NCBI GenBank assembly: GCA_017507525.1
Contig: JAFWAT010000062.1
Span: 1 to 49,308, forward strand
Length of the DNA: 49,308 nucleotides
Source: Clostridia bacterium
GTDB taxonomy: Bacteria; Bacillota; Clostridia; UBA1381; UBA9506
Direction of reading: 5' to 3'
In this document: positions 33,451-40,835 of the stretch, piece by piece
Layout of the letters: each line of letters begins with the position of its first letter
Numbering within the stretch: position 1 is the stretch's first letter
Notes under the pieces: model-generated
Database searches by the model: none
Told to the model about the DNA's origin: nothing
The model's input: only the letters and a program-made list of their open reading frames with translations
Position numbers and translations under genes: made by a program

Positions 33451-33762
33451 TTATATGCCGCTGCTCATAATTGCAAAAACAATAAGGAGAATATACAAAA
33501 TTACAACCAATAAAGAAAGCCCCACAGACAAAATCGCACTGACCAATGCACCCTTGCCGGCAGATTTTGCTTTCAGCGGCATGGTATCCTTCCACACAAG
33601 ATAGAGCACAAGACCCGCTACCGGAATTAAAAAGCCAAGTAACGCAAAACCAAAGCTACTGGAATCCTGCACAACCGAAAGAGGTGGCTGGCTACAGCTG
33701 CAGGTAGGACAAATCTGCGCCTGATCTGCCAGTTCAGCACCGCATTTTGGACAAAATTTCAT
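33451..33762 (-). CDS. zinc-ribbon small membrane protein
   Basis: A 103-residue protein of unknown role. The N-terminus is a zinc ribbon, MKFCPKCG...CPTC with Cys4, Cys7, Cys18 and Cys21, followed by two hydrophobic helices (about 37-58 and 71-98) with a short basic loop. Such proteins sit in the cytoplasmic membrane with the ribbon inside. ATG 33762 follows AAGGAGGG; the frame to 33840 runs through the promoter. It is a lone gene. The zinc ribbon resembles that of the VWA protein at 36563 in form only. The 200-nt gap to the cation transporter shows nothing clear. Confidence 0.8.
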   Translation of the reverse strand: MKFCPKCGAELADQAQICPTCSCSQPPLSVVQDSSSFGFALLGFLIPVAGLVLYLVWKDTMPLKAKSAGKGALVSAILSVGLSLLVVILYILLIVFAIMSSGI

Positions 33763-33792
33763 AGAAAATCCCTCCTTAATAGATTTATCTAC

Positions 33793-33821
33793 ATTATATA
33801 ATATAATTCTCCAAAAGGCAA
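33793..33821 (-). promoter_or_regulatory. promoter of the zinc-ribbon gene
   Basis: On the minus strand TTGCCT (33821-33816), 17-nt spacer, perfect TATAAT (33798-33793). Confidence 0.7.
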
Positions 33822-33856
33822 GAAGTTTATCGGCGAACAACCCGGCTGTCAGCGTT

Positions 33857-35965: not shown

Positions 35966-36149
35966 GTGATTTAATGAAATATTTTTCATTAAATTCACAT
36001 TTTTTACGAATTTTTGCCCTGTTTAGTTTCGTTTTGTCCTTTTTTCGACCGATTGATTTATATGTGAGAAGGATTTACTTAGCTCAATTGCAACGCCAAA
36101 AGGATTAAATAGAAAGTATCCGCACCTGCTTTTTGCCGCTTGTTATCAC

Positions 36150-36314
36150 CATTTTCGCTTAGACACAAGCGGAGCGAAGAACATCGGCGCCCTTAAAAAC
36201 AGGCAAACGACGGAATATATGATTCAATATATTCATGAGCATTTCAGCTTGCGCCTGTCCGTTCAGGTTTTGGCTAAAAAAGTATATTGTAAAAAAACAC
36301 ATGGGTGTTTTTGA
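36150..36314 (+). pseudogene. remnant of an AraC-type HTH regulator
   Basis: In the plus frame through 36201-36314 the translation reads TEYMIQYIHEHF, then LSVQVLAKKVYCKK before a stop. This spacing (YIxEHF, LSxxxLAxxVY) matches the first helix-turn-helix of AraC-family regulators; the second helix pair is missing. There is no start codon or ribosome binding site. The rest of the 36000-36500 interval is AT-rich and empty. Confidence 0.45.
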
Positions 36315-36531: not shown

Positions 36532-36562
36532 AGTATCATAGATCATTAGGAGGGGAATTAAT

Positions 36563-38638
36563 ATGAAATGTAGAAATTGCGGTAGCGAGCTGCCGGAGGA
36601 AGCAAATTTTTGTGCAAGCTGCGGTACCAAAGTTGAGCATGAGACTGCACCTGTGGCAGAGACCGAAGCTTCACCGACTTGGTTTGCTGCTACACAGGAA
36701 GGTGATCCTGAACCGGCAGCAACCACCGAAGCACCGAAAGAGGTGCCAGAAGAAGCACCTGCTACAGAAAACAATTCTGTACCACCAGTGCCGGTAGCCA
36801 AAAAGAATAACGTTCCTTTAATTGCAGGGATAGCTGCTGCAGCTGTGGCTGTTTTAATTGTTATAATTACAGGAATCGTTGGACTTTTTTCTCTCATCGC
36901 ATCCAGACCGGTCTCTGATGAAAAGGCAGGCGGCATGATTGAAGAGGTTATGTGCGAGCTTCAAAATTATGAATATGATGCAGCGGAAAGTCTTTTAAAG
37001 AAAATTAAATTAAAAGAAGACTCACAGTATACAGACATCTTGGCAGAGCTTGAAGAAATCACAGCCGCTAAGCCGAAGGTTACACGTGTTGACACCTCTG
37101 ATTATCCAAAGGTCACGGTGACATTAAAAACCGATGATGGTGATGTTAACTATCAAAAAGAAGACTTTGAGATTTTGTGTGAAGATTCATCGGTTGAATC
37201 GGTAATAAAGCTTGAAAAATCCGGCAAAACATATCAGCTTACATATATAGCAACGGAAGATGACGGCGGCGAAGATATAGAAGATAAAATTCTTTTCACC
37301 AAATATGAATATGTAGACTTTTATGTCCCCTTTGAATTTGTTTCAGAATATGTAACCGATGCAGGTATTTCTCTTGTAACGTCCAATGTAGAGAAATATC
37401 CTGAGATTTCATTGTACCTGAAAGTTGTTGACGAATATGGTGAACCCATTGAAAATTTAACGAAAGAATCCTTTACCGTAAGAGAATATCTCAACATTCA
37501 TGATTATCTTGAAAGAGATGTTATTTACGCTGCTAAGGTTGATGGCAAGGACGCCTTAAACGTTAGCCTTGCCATTGACAGGAGTGACAGTATCAGCGAT
37601 ACAGATATGGGTAAAATCAAAAACGCAACCAACACGTTTTTGTCAAAGCTGCAGTTTAACTCCGGCGACAAAGCAGAAATCGTAGCCTTTGACACGCACG
37701 TTATGCAGATGTGTCTGTTTACCAATAATAAGGATAACCTGATGAATGGTGTAAACAGCATGTATCCTTACGGTATGACAGCTTGCTATGATGCCATTGT
37801 TCGGTCCATTCAGAACGCAAGCACGCAAAGCGGTGCAAGATGCGTCATTGTCTTTACTGATGGTATGGATAACGAAAGCGTTAATACGGTAGACAGCGTT
37901 ATCAGCCTTGCCAATGCAAAAAGCGTTCCCGTATATACCATCGGTGTCGGCAGAAACTTAGAGGAAGGCGACCTTCGCAGAATCGCCAGCAGCACCGGCG
38001 GCACCTATCACCACATTGACGATATTTCCGCAATGAGCCGGATTTATGAAGAAATTTACAGAGAACAAAAAAATTTGTACCATGTAAAATATGTCAGTGA
38101 CACTTCCCTTTCACAGGACGCAGAAAGGAGAATTGTTGTTCGTGTTTGCGGCAACGGCTACAAAGGCGCGTGTGACAGAGTCTATACCCCCATTACGCCT
38201 GTTGTAAAAGCTTCTCACAATTCAAGATATGAGGTTATCAAAGCGGATATATCCTGGGAAGACGCAAACCGGGCTTGTATTAATAAGGGCGGACATCTTG
38301 CAACCATTACAAGCAAAGAAGAGGAAGACAAGATTATTGCTGTTGCTGAAAAGAGCGGCATTGGCAGGCTCTGGATTGGCGGATACACCACAAACAATCA
38401 GTACGACGAAGCCGTTGGCCACTGGGTCATGGGTGAGCCCTTTGTTTACCAGAACTGGTTCTCAGAAGATGAACCCTCTCGGTTTGACAATGCAGATGAC
38501 GAAGCAGAATTTTACCTGATGCTGTGGAAAATTGACGGCAGATGGTCATGGAACGATCAGCGAAACGATTTAATTAACAGTCCCTTTGCAAGCACCTATC
38601 AGGGCAAAATGGGATATGTTATTGAATACGAGGAATAA
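36563..38638 (+). CDS. membrane protein: zinc ribbon - VWA - C-type-lectin-like
   Basis: A 691-residue protein of unknown function with a clear modular build. Residues 1-22: zinc ribbon with Cys3, Cys6, Cys17, Cys20. Residues 25-80: Pro/Glu/Ala-rich linker. Residues 84-113: one membrane helix, so the ribbon should lie inside and the rest outside. Residues 120-330: acidic stretch with beta-rich repeats. Residues 332-500: von Willebrand A domain with a full MIDAS (Asp339, Ser341, Ser343, Thr406, Asp433). Residues 553-691: C-type-lectin-like domain (WEDANRAC, GGHLATITS, LWIGG, WND, GYVIEYE), with only one Cys, as in bacterial versions. RBS AGGAGGGGAATTAAT. Single gene. Likely an adhesion or surface-sensing protein; this is inference. 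Confidence 0.87.
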   Translation: MKCRNCGSELPEEANFCASCGTKVEHETAPVAETEASPTWFAATQEGDPEPAATTEAPKEVPEEAPATENNSVPPVPVAKKNNVPLIAGIAAAAVAVLIVIITGIVGLFSLIASRPVSDEKAGGMIEEVMCELQNYEYDAAESLLKKIKLKEDSQYTDILAELEEITAAKPKVTRVDTSDYPKVTVTLKTDDGDVNYQKEDFEILCEDSSVESVIKLEKSGKTYQLTYIATEDDGGEDIEDKILFTKYEYVDFYVPFEFVSEYVTDAGISLVTSNVEKYPEISLYLKVVDEYGEPIENLTKESFTVREYLNIHDYLERDVIYAAKVDGKDALNVSLAIDRSDSISDTDMGKIKNATNTFLSKLQFNSGDKAEIVAFDTHVMQMCLFTNNKDNLMNGVNSMYPYGMTACYDAIVRSIQNASTQSGARCVIVFTDGMDNESVNTVDSVISLANAKSVPVYTIGVGRNLEEGDLRRIASSTGGTYHHIDDISAMSRIYEEIYREQKNLYHVKYVSDTSLSQDAERRIVVRVCGNGYKGACDRVYTPITPVVKASHNSRYEVIKADISWEDANRACINKGGHLATITSKEEEDKIIAVAEKSGIGRLWIGGYTTNNQYDEAVGHWVMGEPFVYQNWFSEDEPSRFDNADDEAEFYLMLWKIDGRWSWNDQRNDLINSPFASTYQGKMGYVIEYEE

Positions 38639-38739
38639 TTTGACGATGAATTTTCTACAATTGAAGCTTTATTAAAGCCTTCATAAGCTATTACAGGGGC
38701 AGGCTCAATAAACAAACAGGATGTAGAAATATTCCTTTT

Positions 38740-38786
38740 GTAGGGGTCATTCATGAATGACCCGCGGGCGATTCGTGAATCGCCCC
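38740..38786. repeat. two GAATG/GCGATTC palindrome repeats
   Basis: GTAGGGGTCATTC, AT, GAATGACCC (38740-38763) is followed after two nt by GGGCGATTC, GT, GAATCGCCCC (38766-38786). The first arm pair differs from other copies by CG to TC with the matching change in the other arm. Confidence 0.7.
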
Positions 38787-38807
38787 AACAAATTTTACTC
38801 AATCTAC

Positions 38808-38866
38808 TGACACAAGGGTGACATGACACAAGGGTGTGACACAAGGGGACGGTTCTATTGTGCACA
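38808..38866. repeat. TGACACAAGGG iterations
   Basis: TGACACAAGGG occurs at 38808, 38824 and 38837; the last continues into GGACGGTTCTATTGTGCACA, whose end partly complements the start (CACAA/TTGTG). It resembles short mobile-element end repeats seen in many genomes, from memory only. Confidence 0.55.
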
Positions 38867-38934: not shown

Positions 38935-38963
38935 TTGACACACAGATATACCCTTGCTATAAT
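38935..38963 (+). promoter_or_regulatory. perR-rbr operon promoter
   Basis: Perfect TTGACA and TATAAT with 17-nt spacing, 53 bp before perR. Confidence 0.9.
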
Positions 38964-38967
38964 TTAA

Positions 38968-38982
38968 TTGTAATCATTACAA
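38968..38982 (+). promoter_or_regulatory. PerR box
   Basis: TTGTAAT-C-ATTACAA is a perfect 7-1-7 inverted repeat just after the -10 hexamer, differing from the Bacillus PerR consensus (TTATAATNATTATAA) at two symmetric positions. Placement over the transcription start fits repression of the operon by its own first product. Confidence 0.8.
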
Positions 38983-39016
38983 AAGTGAAATCGTTACAGA
39001 GTAAGGAGGTTTTGTT

Positions 39017-39415
39017 ATGACATCGGCAGAGATACTTGCAAAGCATGACATTAAGCCTTCGCTGCCCAGAGTGCTCATCTTTGATTACCTCAGGCAGCAC
39101 AGAACGCACCCAACAGTTGATGAGATTTATTCCTCATTATCCAAACGGGTGCCCACCCTTTCCAAAACAACGGTGTATAACACAGTAAAGCTGCTTTCAG
39201 CAGCGGGCATTGTTAAAACCATTACCATTGAAGAGCAGCAAGCCCGCTATGATGCCTGCACCGACCTTCACGGTCACTTCCTCTGCACCGACTGCGGCGG
39301 CGTTTTCGATTTTGACACCTCACTGCCTGACAGCCGGCTGCCCCATGGGTTTACCGTTAAAACACAGGAGGTATATTACACCGGCTCTTGCGAACATTGC
39401 AGTCAAAAAAATTAA
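39017..39415 (+). CDS. perR: Fur family peroxide regulator PerR
   Basis: A 132-residue metal-dependent repressor. The winged-helix DNA-binding part has LPRVLIFDYLRQH and SKTTVYNTVKLL near 49-60. The regulatory metal ligands of Bacillus subtilis PerR align with a constant shift: His31, Asp79, His85, His87 and Asp98, the Asp marking PerR as opposed to Fur. Cys90/Cys93 and Cys125/Cys128 form the structural zinc site. Oxidation of the ligating His releases DNA under peroxide in characterised PerR. It leads an operon of rubrerythrin, a [2Fe-2S] protein and ferritin, which supports this role. RBS AAGGAGG. Confidence 0.93.
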   Translation: MTSAEILAKHDIKPSLPRVLIFDYLRQHRTHPTVDEIYSSLSKRVPTLSKTTVYNTVKLLSAAGIVKTITIEEQQARYDACTDLHGHFLCTDCGGVFDFDTSLPDSRLPHGFTVKTQEVYYTGSCEHCSQKN

Positions 39416-39451
39416 AATAAAAAATTATTTTTAAAAAGGAGATTAAAGATT

Positions 39452-40039
39452 ATGAAAAAATTTGTATGTTCTGTATGCGGTTACGTTCACGAGGGAGATT
39501 CCGCTCCCGAAAAATGCCCGGTATGTAAGGTTCCGGCTGAAAAGTTTAAAGAAATGGAAGAAGGCGCAGCACTGGCTGCTGAACACGAATACGGCGTTTA
39601 TGGTAAAACCGTAAAAAACAATCCCGATATCTCTGAAGAAGATAAAAAATATATTTTTGAACAGCTGATGGCAAACTTCAACGGCGAATGTGCTGAGGTT
39701 GGTATGTATCTGTGCATGGCAAGAATCGCACACCGTGAAGGTTACCCCGAGGTTGGTCTTTACTGGGAAAAAGCAGCTTATGAAGAAGCTGAACACGCAG
39801 CTAAATTTGCTGAACTCTTAGGTGAAGATTTAGAACCCAACATGAAAGCAACCACCAAGGATAACCTAAAGTGGAGAGTTGACTGCGAATACGGCGCAAC
39901 CCAGGGCAAGTTCGATTTAGCCTCCTGCGCTAAGAAAAACGGTCTGGATGCCATCCACGATACCGTGCATGAAATGGCGCGCGATGAAGCTCGGCACGGC
40001 AAAGGCTTAGAAGGACTTTTAAAGAGATATTTTGGTTAA
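39452..40039 (+). CDS. reverse rubrerythrin (rubredoxin domain first)
   Basis: A 195-residue peroxide-reducing protein of anaerobes. Unlike classical rubrerythrin the rubredoxin-like Fe(Cys)4 site is at the N-terminus (Cys6, Cys9, Cys22, Cys25), and the four-helix di-iron domain follows ([31 protein letters not shown], and DEARHG near 180 giving the Glu/His ligands). This order matches the reverse rubrerythrins of Clostridium, which accept electrons from NADH via other proteins and remove H2O2 and O2. RBS AAAGGAG. Second gene of the perR operon. Confidence 0.94.
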
Positions 40040-40058
40040 ACCGAAGGAGGGAGACAGC

Positions 40059-40262
40059 ATGGAAAATTATATGGTTTGCAACTGCAAACAGGTCAGCTAT
40101 GCAGATATTTCTGATGCGGTTCATGGTAACGCACATTTTGATGATGTTTTAAAAACATTTGAAGATGTGCAGAAAATAACCCATTGCTCCACTGGCTGCG
40201 GCGGTTGCCATCAAAAGGTTTTAGATATTATATCCGATATTTTAAGCGGAGCATCACAGTAA
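40059..40262 (+). CDS. BFD-like [2Fe-2S]-binding protein
   Basis: A 67-residue protein with the bacterioferritin-associated ferredoxin pattern: CNCKQVSY at residues 8-15 and CSTGCGGC near 47-54, giving the four Cys of a [2Fe-2S] cluster. In E. coli-like systems Bfd helps release iron from bacterioferritin; being two genes from ferritin suggests an iron-release or electron-transfer role here. ATG 40059 follows GGAGGGAGACAGC; an earlier in-frame ATG at 40032 overlaps the rubrerythrin end. Confidence 0.85.
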   Translation: MENYMVCNCKQVSYADISDAVHGNAHFDDVLKTFEDVQKITHCSTGCGGCHQKVLDIISDILSGASQ

Positions 40263-40273
40263 AATTGAAAGCA

Positions 40274-40300
40274 GGGCACGCCGCTATCGGGGTGCCCTTT
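40274..40300 (+). terminator. hairpin between the BFD-like gene and ftn
   Basis: GGGCAC pairs with GTGCCC across a loop that starts GCCGC, followed by TTTT. Possibly a partial terminator lowering ftn expression. Confidence 0.5.
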
Positions 40301-40322
40301 TACATGAAAAGGAGAGAGTAAC

Positions 40323-40835
40323 ATGTTAGATGCAAAGGTAGTAAAGCTTATCAACGAACAGGTTAATAAGGAATTATATTCAGCGTATTTATATCTTGAT
40401 TTTTCTATTTTTTATGAACAGCAGGGCTTAGACGGCTTTGCCAACTGGTATATGGTTCAGGCGCAGGAAGAACGTGACCATGCGCTGCTGTTCTTGCAGT
40501 ATTTACAGCAAAACGGCGAAAAGGTGACCTTAGAAGCCGTAGCAAAGCCTGACAAGGAAATGAAAACCTTGATGGATCCGCTGCAGTTTGGTTTTGAGCA
40601 TGAACAGTATGTAACAAGCCTGATTAATGATATTTATGCAGCGGCATACGAGGTGAAAGACTTTAGAAGCATGCAGTTTTTAGACTGGTTCGTCAAAGAG
40701 CAGTTAGAAGAAGAAAAGAACGCAGACGACATGATTAAGAAAATGGAGCTGTTCGGTAATGATTCCAAAGGTCTTTATTCTTTGGATTCTGAATATGCAC
40801 AAAGAGTGTATACGGCTCCCTCCCTTGTTTTATAA
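40323..40835 (+). CDS. ftn: ferritin
   Basis: A 170-residue non-haem ferritin storing iron as a 24-mer. Ferroxidase ligands are visible: Glu17 (NKELYSAYLY), Glu49/Glu50 and His53 (AQEERDHA), and Glu94 and the EQLEEEKNADDM segment near 127. RBS AAGGAGAGAG. Last gene of the perR operon, ended by a strong terminator; the group limits free iron and peroxide together. Confidence 0.95.
   Translation: MLDAKVVKLINEQVNKELYSAYLYLDFSIFYEQQGLDGFANWYMVQAQEERDHALLFLQYLQQNGEKVTLEAVAKPDKEMKTLMDPLQFGFEHEQYVTSLINDIYAAAYEVKDFRSMQFLDWFVKEQLEEEKNADDMIKKMELFGNDSKGLYSLDSEYAQRVYTAPSLVL

Follow-up and report, generated by a model that had tools for sequence, protein, structure and literature searches.

A zinc ribbon, membrane helix, VWA and C-type lectin-like fusion protein of gut Clostridia: a putative metal-dependent surface adhesin or receptor

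Introduction

Proteins that carry both a vWA and a CLec domain have been described as DGR-diversified targets of VMAP-type conflict systems, those of Thiohalocapsa among them (PMC10907252). In the C-type lectin-like domain (CTLD) of cow CD23, the Asn of the sugar motif contacts both Ca2+ and a sugar hydroxyl; in human CD23, which has Thr in place of that Asn, sugar binding is not detectable, and surfactant protein A with EPA or EPR retains weak sugar binding (PMC6791321).

Here we analyse a gene of a Clostridia bacterium whose product unites a zinc ribbon, a single membrane helix, a VWA domain and a CTLD. The gene lies in a stretch of 49,308 nucleotides, called the window below. A sequence-only reading had proposed this layout, with the ribbon inside and the two other domains outside the cell, and had suggested a surface adhesin or a sensor.

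Results

Organisation of the gene and its product

The gene is one unbroken open reading frame on the forward strand (36563-38638) encoding 691 residues plus a stop. Its features, and those of its immediate context, are the following:

36070..36302, forward strand: context, stop-broken remnant of an AraC-family regulator (tblastn with the intact SIG439 protein)
36548..36555, forward strand: ribosome-binding site AGGAGGGG, 7 nt 5' of the ATG (read from the sequence)
36563..38638, forward strand: whole gene (uninterrupted reading frame; dN/dS 0.12 against SIG439)
36566..36634, forward strand: zinc ribbon, residues 2-24 (C3, C6, C17, C20), expected in the cytosol (Pfam Zn_Ribbon_1; cysteines invariant in orthologues)
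36812..36901, forward strand: single membrane helix, residues ~84-113 (hydropathy; AlphaFold2 helix 89-114, low confidence)
36905..37072, forward strand: helical stalk, residues ~115-170 (AlphaFold2, confident)
37073..37348, forward strand: beta domain, residues ~171-262 (AlphaFold2, confident strands)
37349..37558, forward strand: beta subdomain before the VWA, residues ~263-332 (within a sub-cut-off TIGR03436 match, 281-533)
37559..38050, forward strand: VWA, residues 333-496, MIDAS D339-x-S341-x-S343, T406, D433 (Pfam, full profile)
38219..38635, forward strand: CTLD, residues 553-691; predicted Ca2+ site E637, S639 (replacing Asn), E649, N664, D665 (Pfam Lectin_C; PDB profile and fold matches)
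38737..38847, no strand assigned: context, intergenic repeats, a 63-bp element and 2.7 copies of a 16-bp unit

Zn_Ribbon_1, VWA and Lectin_C alike pass their Pfam cut-offs, and all three are present in each of the four orthologues (4/4). The use of curated cut-offs, together with conservation in four genomes, rules out chance domain matches, and the three-domain order is therefore more than chance. With hydropathy added, these matches bear out the layout of the sequence-only reading.

The ribbon (PF13240, residues 2-24) scores 31.1 bits against a cut-off of 25 and contains two CxxC pairs, whose cysteines C3, C6, C17 and C20 are invariant among the four orthologues. The sole strongly hydrophobic stretch (~84-113) reaches a hydropathy of 2.93 over 19 residues, the next best segment 1.0. 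Since it is preceded by KK, an N-inside topology is expected, with the ribbon inside and the remainder of the protein outside; the orientation first proposed is accordingly judged right.

A full-length AlphaFold2 model, run on the four orthologue sequences, is confident only over residues ~115-260, which form three helices and a beta domain; Foldseek matches of this model have no bearing on the VWA or the CTLD. The beta domain (~171-262) is probably Ig-like, as judged from the model, and the beta subdomain that follows (~263-332) is 71-81% identical among the orthologues.

The VWA (PF00092) scores 65.7 bits (cut-off 23.8, 7.8e-18) and covers positions 1-173 of the 174 of the profile. Its MIDAS is complete (DxSxS, T, D), and D339, S341, S343, T406 and D433 are invariant in the four orthologues, so that a complete MIDAS VWA was correctly recognised from the start. 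The VWFA-related model TIGR03436 misses its curated cut-off of 81.25, with 72.7 bits over residues 281-533 and 70.6 for the SIG439 orthologue. The VWA is a poorly modelled region, where good AlphaFold2 confidence is absent. An Rfam search gave no match, and a promoter scan gave nothing above its shuffles.

The CTLD and its predicted Ca2+ site

Lectin_C (PF00059) matches residues 563-644 with 35.6 bits against a cut-off of 22.6 (1.7e-8), and a profile of 11 clostridial CTLDs strongly matches solved CTLDs, including mannose receptor family members, Mincle and CD23. The AlphaFold2 model of residues 545-691 is weak (mean pLDDT 52, pTM 0.51), and a PDB fold search with this low-confidence model retrieved mainly CTLDs. 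The lectin-like fold anticipated in residues 553-691 is thus found by Pfam, PDB profile match and fold match. The name "lectin-like" holds for the fold and not for the sugar motif: the EPN/QPD motif at the main Ca2+ site is absent, being EPS at 637-639 in every family member, and glycan binding should not be assumed. The conserved Cys pairs of the canonical disulfide-bonded CTLD are also absent, the domain containing one Cys (C572).

A well-supported branch (100/99) in the tree of 46 clostridial CTLDs sets 15 of them apart. This clade comprises the four-genome fusion family, the proteins with a zinc ribbon, a membrane helix and a CTLD (ZnR-TM-CTLD proteins), the membrane proteins L066 and L079, and L065 and L120, which are lipoprotein-like by their N-termini. 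Position 639 is Ser in 13 members and Thr in two, so that EPS/EPT is found in 15/15, and E637, E649, N664 and D665 are unvarying in all 15; outside the clade, 28 of 31 CTLDs have Asn or Asp at position 639. The split gives a Fisher p of 1.6e-9, a value that ignores kinship and to which the fusion family contributes five of the 15 clade rows.

These residues describe a new, well-supported clade of predicted membrane-anchored CTLDs, in which EPS/EPT replaces EPN/QPD and the other four predicted Ca2+ ligands are fixed. The fixed ligands make a Ca2+ site in the fusion CTLD likely, and the exchange at position 639, of the kind that goes along with undetectable sugar binding in human CD23, puts simple sugar binding in doubt. 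Surfactant protein A still binds sugars weakly with EPA or EPR, so EPS does not exclude sugar binding.

A DGR target was also considered and ruled out: the 3' end of the gene is without a second copy in the 96% complete assembly, where its best other match is 19 bases long (E 0.01).

Spread, divergence and selection

Full-length orthologues, 63-73% identical, occur in three other genomes: SIG439, of the same genus (about 73%), and RGIG5440 (sheep colon) and RGIG4103 (roe deer cecum), both of another order (about 63-66%). The fusion is found in 2 of 95 genomes of its own order. In an even sample of the class (391 genomes) it occurs only in the window's genome and in RGIG5440 and RGIG4103, and a sample of the phylum (398 genomes) yielded no further fusion. 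We found no widespread, already characterised family to which the protein would belong, and our literature search on the exact domain combination returned nothing relevant. Among Lectin_C proteins from the sampled loci of the class, VWA and CTLD are combined in the fusion family only, as judged with a VWA profile built from the four orthologues, which a very distant VWA could escape. Plasmids, phage records and viral contigs gave single-domain matches and no full-length relative, which rules out phage or plasmid cargo. A second CTLD almost identical to that of the fusion lies at a contig edge of RGIG5440 (L058, G228:C223:2-418), a genome that may carry the fusion twice.

The gene is under purifying selection, strongest on the VWA and the CTLD, with a dN/dS against SIG439 of 0.12 for the whole gene and 0.07 for the VWA; a value near 0.12 rules out a pseudogene. 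The VWA and CTLD are the slowest-evolving parts (79-88% identity among orthologues), and conservation is among the lowest (32-64%) in the ribbon, the linker and the membrane helix. Against SIG439, the VWA is 85% and the CTLD 88% identical, and identity falls to 47-57% in the ribbon, the linker, the helix, the helical stalk and the first beta domain. The neighbouring PEPCK, Fur and rubrerythrin are 94-97% identical to those of SIG439, so the fusion protein evolves faster than its neighbours, though its two binding domains are conserved.

Ribosomal protein L2 shows 96% identity between the two members of the genus and 78% identity to its counterpart in the RGIG5440 genome; the corresponding values for the fusion are 72% and 66%. 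This flat identity ratio, together with the patchy spread, suggests that the fusion was transferred horizontally between the two orders. In the CTLD tree, the window's copy lies closer to those of the other order than to that of SIG439, with modest support (80/80).

Genomic surroundings

The gene had been described as standing between repeats and a decayed regulator. Both exist: the decayed regulator is upstream and of AraC type (36070-36302), and the repeats are downstream (38737-38847). The AraC remnant is 58% identical over residues 185-234 to the product of the intact gene of SIG439, and its stops lie in the other fragment. The Fur gene downstream (39017-39415) was ruled out as the decayed regulator, since it is intact, passes its Pfam cut-off and is 94% identical to that of SIG439 across its full 132 residues. 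The 63-bp element (38737-38799) matches another place in the sister genome's contig at 90% (L021:2216-2278) and looks like a dispersed repeat.

Two further stretches of the window were noted. On the forward strand, 38935-40835 has a perfect sigma-70-type promoter (12/12, with TG) before the intact Fur-family regulator and rubrerythrin, followed by BFD-like and ferritin-like genes identified by eye, and looks like an oxidative-stress and iron cluster. On the reverse strand, 33451-33840 encodes another small protein, which has hydrophobic segments and, at its N-terminus, a zinc ribbon that scores below the Pfam cut-offs.

In SIG439 the fusion gene lies between pckA and Fur-rubrerythrin and is preceded by intact AraC, M24 peptidase and PIG-L genes; no trace of the latter two was found in the window. 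In the other order (RGIG5440 and RGIG4103) the neighbour genes differ. In RGIG4103 the 3' end of the fusion is slightly overlapped by a GH3-family gene (L023:9952-11145, forward strand), whose start lies at that end or just within it, and co-transcription is possible. No conserved partner gene was found among the orthologue neighbourhoods, so the fusion protein probably acts alone or with unlinked partners.

Related clostridial proteins

ZnR-TM-CTLD proteins and stalk-VWA proteins each recur separately in the class sample. Other CTLD builds of the class are TIR-TM-PASTA-CTLD, kinase-TM-CTLD and secreted CTLDs with NlpC/P60, M23, dockerin or S-layer domains. The TIR protein (L076:1189-2688, forward strand) combines a TIR domain, a membrane helix, a weak PASTA match and a CTLD, and is possibly a surface receptor with the TIR inside; the kinase protein (L110:1-2268, forward strand), whose start is cut off by the locus, has a protein kinase, a membrane helix and a CTLD. 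The CTLDs of these TIR, kinase and secreted builds belong to the other CTLD clade, and any role of theirs in signalling or wall binding is therefore not simply transferable to the fusion. In the same genus, the gene of a different zinc-ribbon-TM protein is lined up with those of a VWA-like fragment, a PP2C-like phosphatase and a Ser/Thr kinase-like protein (L009, G002:C17:53685-57095); the row resembles VWA-phosphatase-kinase triads, the assignments being by eye except for the ribbon.

Discussion

We propose that the protein is anchored in the membrane, N-inside, and that its helical and beta stalk would hold two metal-dependent binding domains off the cell. The VWA would bind its ligand via a divalent ion in the MIDAS, and the conserved site of the CTLD would take up Ca2+. 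The ligand is probably a fixed one, the same in different hosts, and may be a protein or envelope component and not a simple sugar of the mannose or galactose type. In this role the protein would be an adhesin or receptor, the cytosolic ribbon being most likely a small anchoring or partner-binding module. We put the chance that this reading, of a surface adhesin or receptor that depends on metals and recognises a fixed and perhaps non-sugar ligand, is correct at about even. The slow evolution of the VWA and CTLD fits a fixed ligand, and the lack of a conserved operon partner fits a stand-alone binding protein. The surface adhesin of the sequence-only reading is compatible with all the evidence. 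Some bacterial VWA domains function in assembly, not adhesion.

That reading had also suggested a sensor, that is, a transmembrane signalling receptor in which an outside ligand changes what the cytosolic ribbon binds. The invariant ribbon cysteines and the existence of clostridial proteins with a CTLD outside and a signalling domain inside (L076, L110) point in this direction; however, the CTLDs of these two proteins belong to the other clade, the ribbon region drifts fast except for its cysteines, and no linked signalling gene or conserved partner gene was found, which leaves signalling a fairly unlikely function. If the CTLD were a true lectin, the protein could be a conventional adhesin that recognises glycans of host mucin or plant fibre. 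Such a role would suit the hosts of the relatives, which include sheep colon and roe deer cecum, and the retention of four of the five canonical Ca2+ ligands. We nevertheless consider it unlikely, because the EPN or QPD motif on which sugar binding depends reads EPS throughout the family and EPS or EPT throughout the clade, and because the tip of a host-facing adhesin would often vary, whereas the fusion is most conserved at its tip.

Quite improbable, in our view, is a non-adhesive, housekeeping protein of the envelope whose target is the wall or surface layer of its own cell: fusions of CTLDs with wall hydrolases (NlpC/P60, M23) and with S-layer domains, and neighbours such as the PIG-L deacetylase of SIG439 and the GH3 gene of RGIG4103, would agree with it, but the hydrolase-linked CTLDs lie in the other clade and the neighbours vary between genomes. 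A conflict-system sensor like the DGR-diversified proteins of Thiohalocapsa is hardly credible, even though vWA and CLec targets are described in such loci (PMC10907252), since the 3' end has no second copy as template repeat, the CTLD is conserved and without hypervariability, there is no PADLOC match, and no MoxR-like ATPase or VMAP gene was recognised among the neighbours read in three genomes, part of which were profile-searched.

Among our results, the EPS/EPT clade offers the most useful starting point for tests: the split from EPN/QPD predicts that the membrane-anchored clade binds Ca2+, and sugars weakly or not at all. The fusion offers a defined small family in herbivore-gut Clostridia for probing what bacterial CTLDs bind. 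As a speculative extension, which we think unlikely to hold, this clade (membrane-anchored, with many members behind a cytosolic zinc ribbon) may have lost the sugar motif and kept the Ca2+ site as an undescribed family of receptors for non-sugar ligands, of which the fusion protein would be the member that gained a MIDAS VWA and became a two-metal receptor.

Compared with known systems, the fusion shares its N-terminal zinc ribbon, single membrane helix and C-terminal EPS/EPT-clade CTLD with the ZnR-TM-CTLD proteins (L064, L069, L070, L077, L078, L116), for which no named family was found; these, however, are without a VWA, have short linkers or other stalks, and their CTLDs are at most 49% identical to its own. 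With the stalk-VWA membrane proteins (L067, L068, L071, L072) and TIGR03436 it shares a beta start of the "YPKIxxxV" type followed by a VWA, although no zinc ribbon or CTLD is seen in the stalk-VWA proteins. The vWA-CLec DGR targets also have a vWA and a CLec fold in one protein, but their CLec is DGR-diversified, they have MoxR/VMAP neighbours and several are cytoplasmic (PMC10907252), whereas the fusion has a conserved domain of the Lectin_C type, is predicted to be membrane-anchored and is without a template repeat. Human CD23, the low-affinity IgE receptor, resembles the fusion CTLD by profile and fold match and by a hydroxyl residue (Thr) for the Asn of EPN (PMC6791321); it is an animal receptor without VWA or zinc ribbon, and the likeness would be one of working, not of descent. 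The modules are known, and their combination is rare, under selection and present in a few herbivore-gut bacteria, where two common clostridial surface modules are united in one protein and kept by selection.
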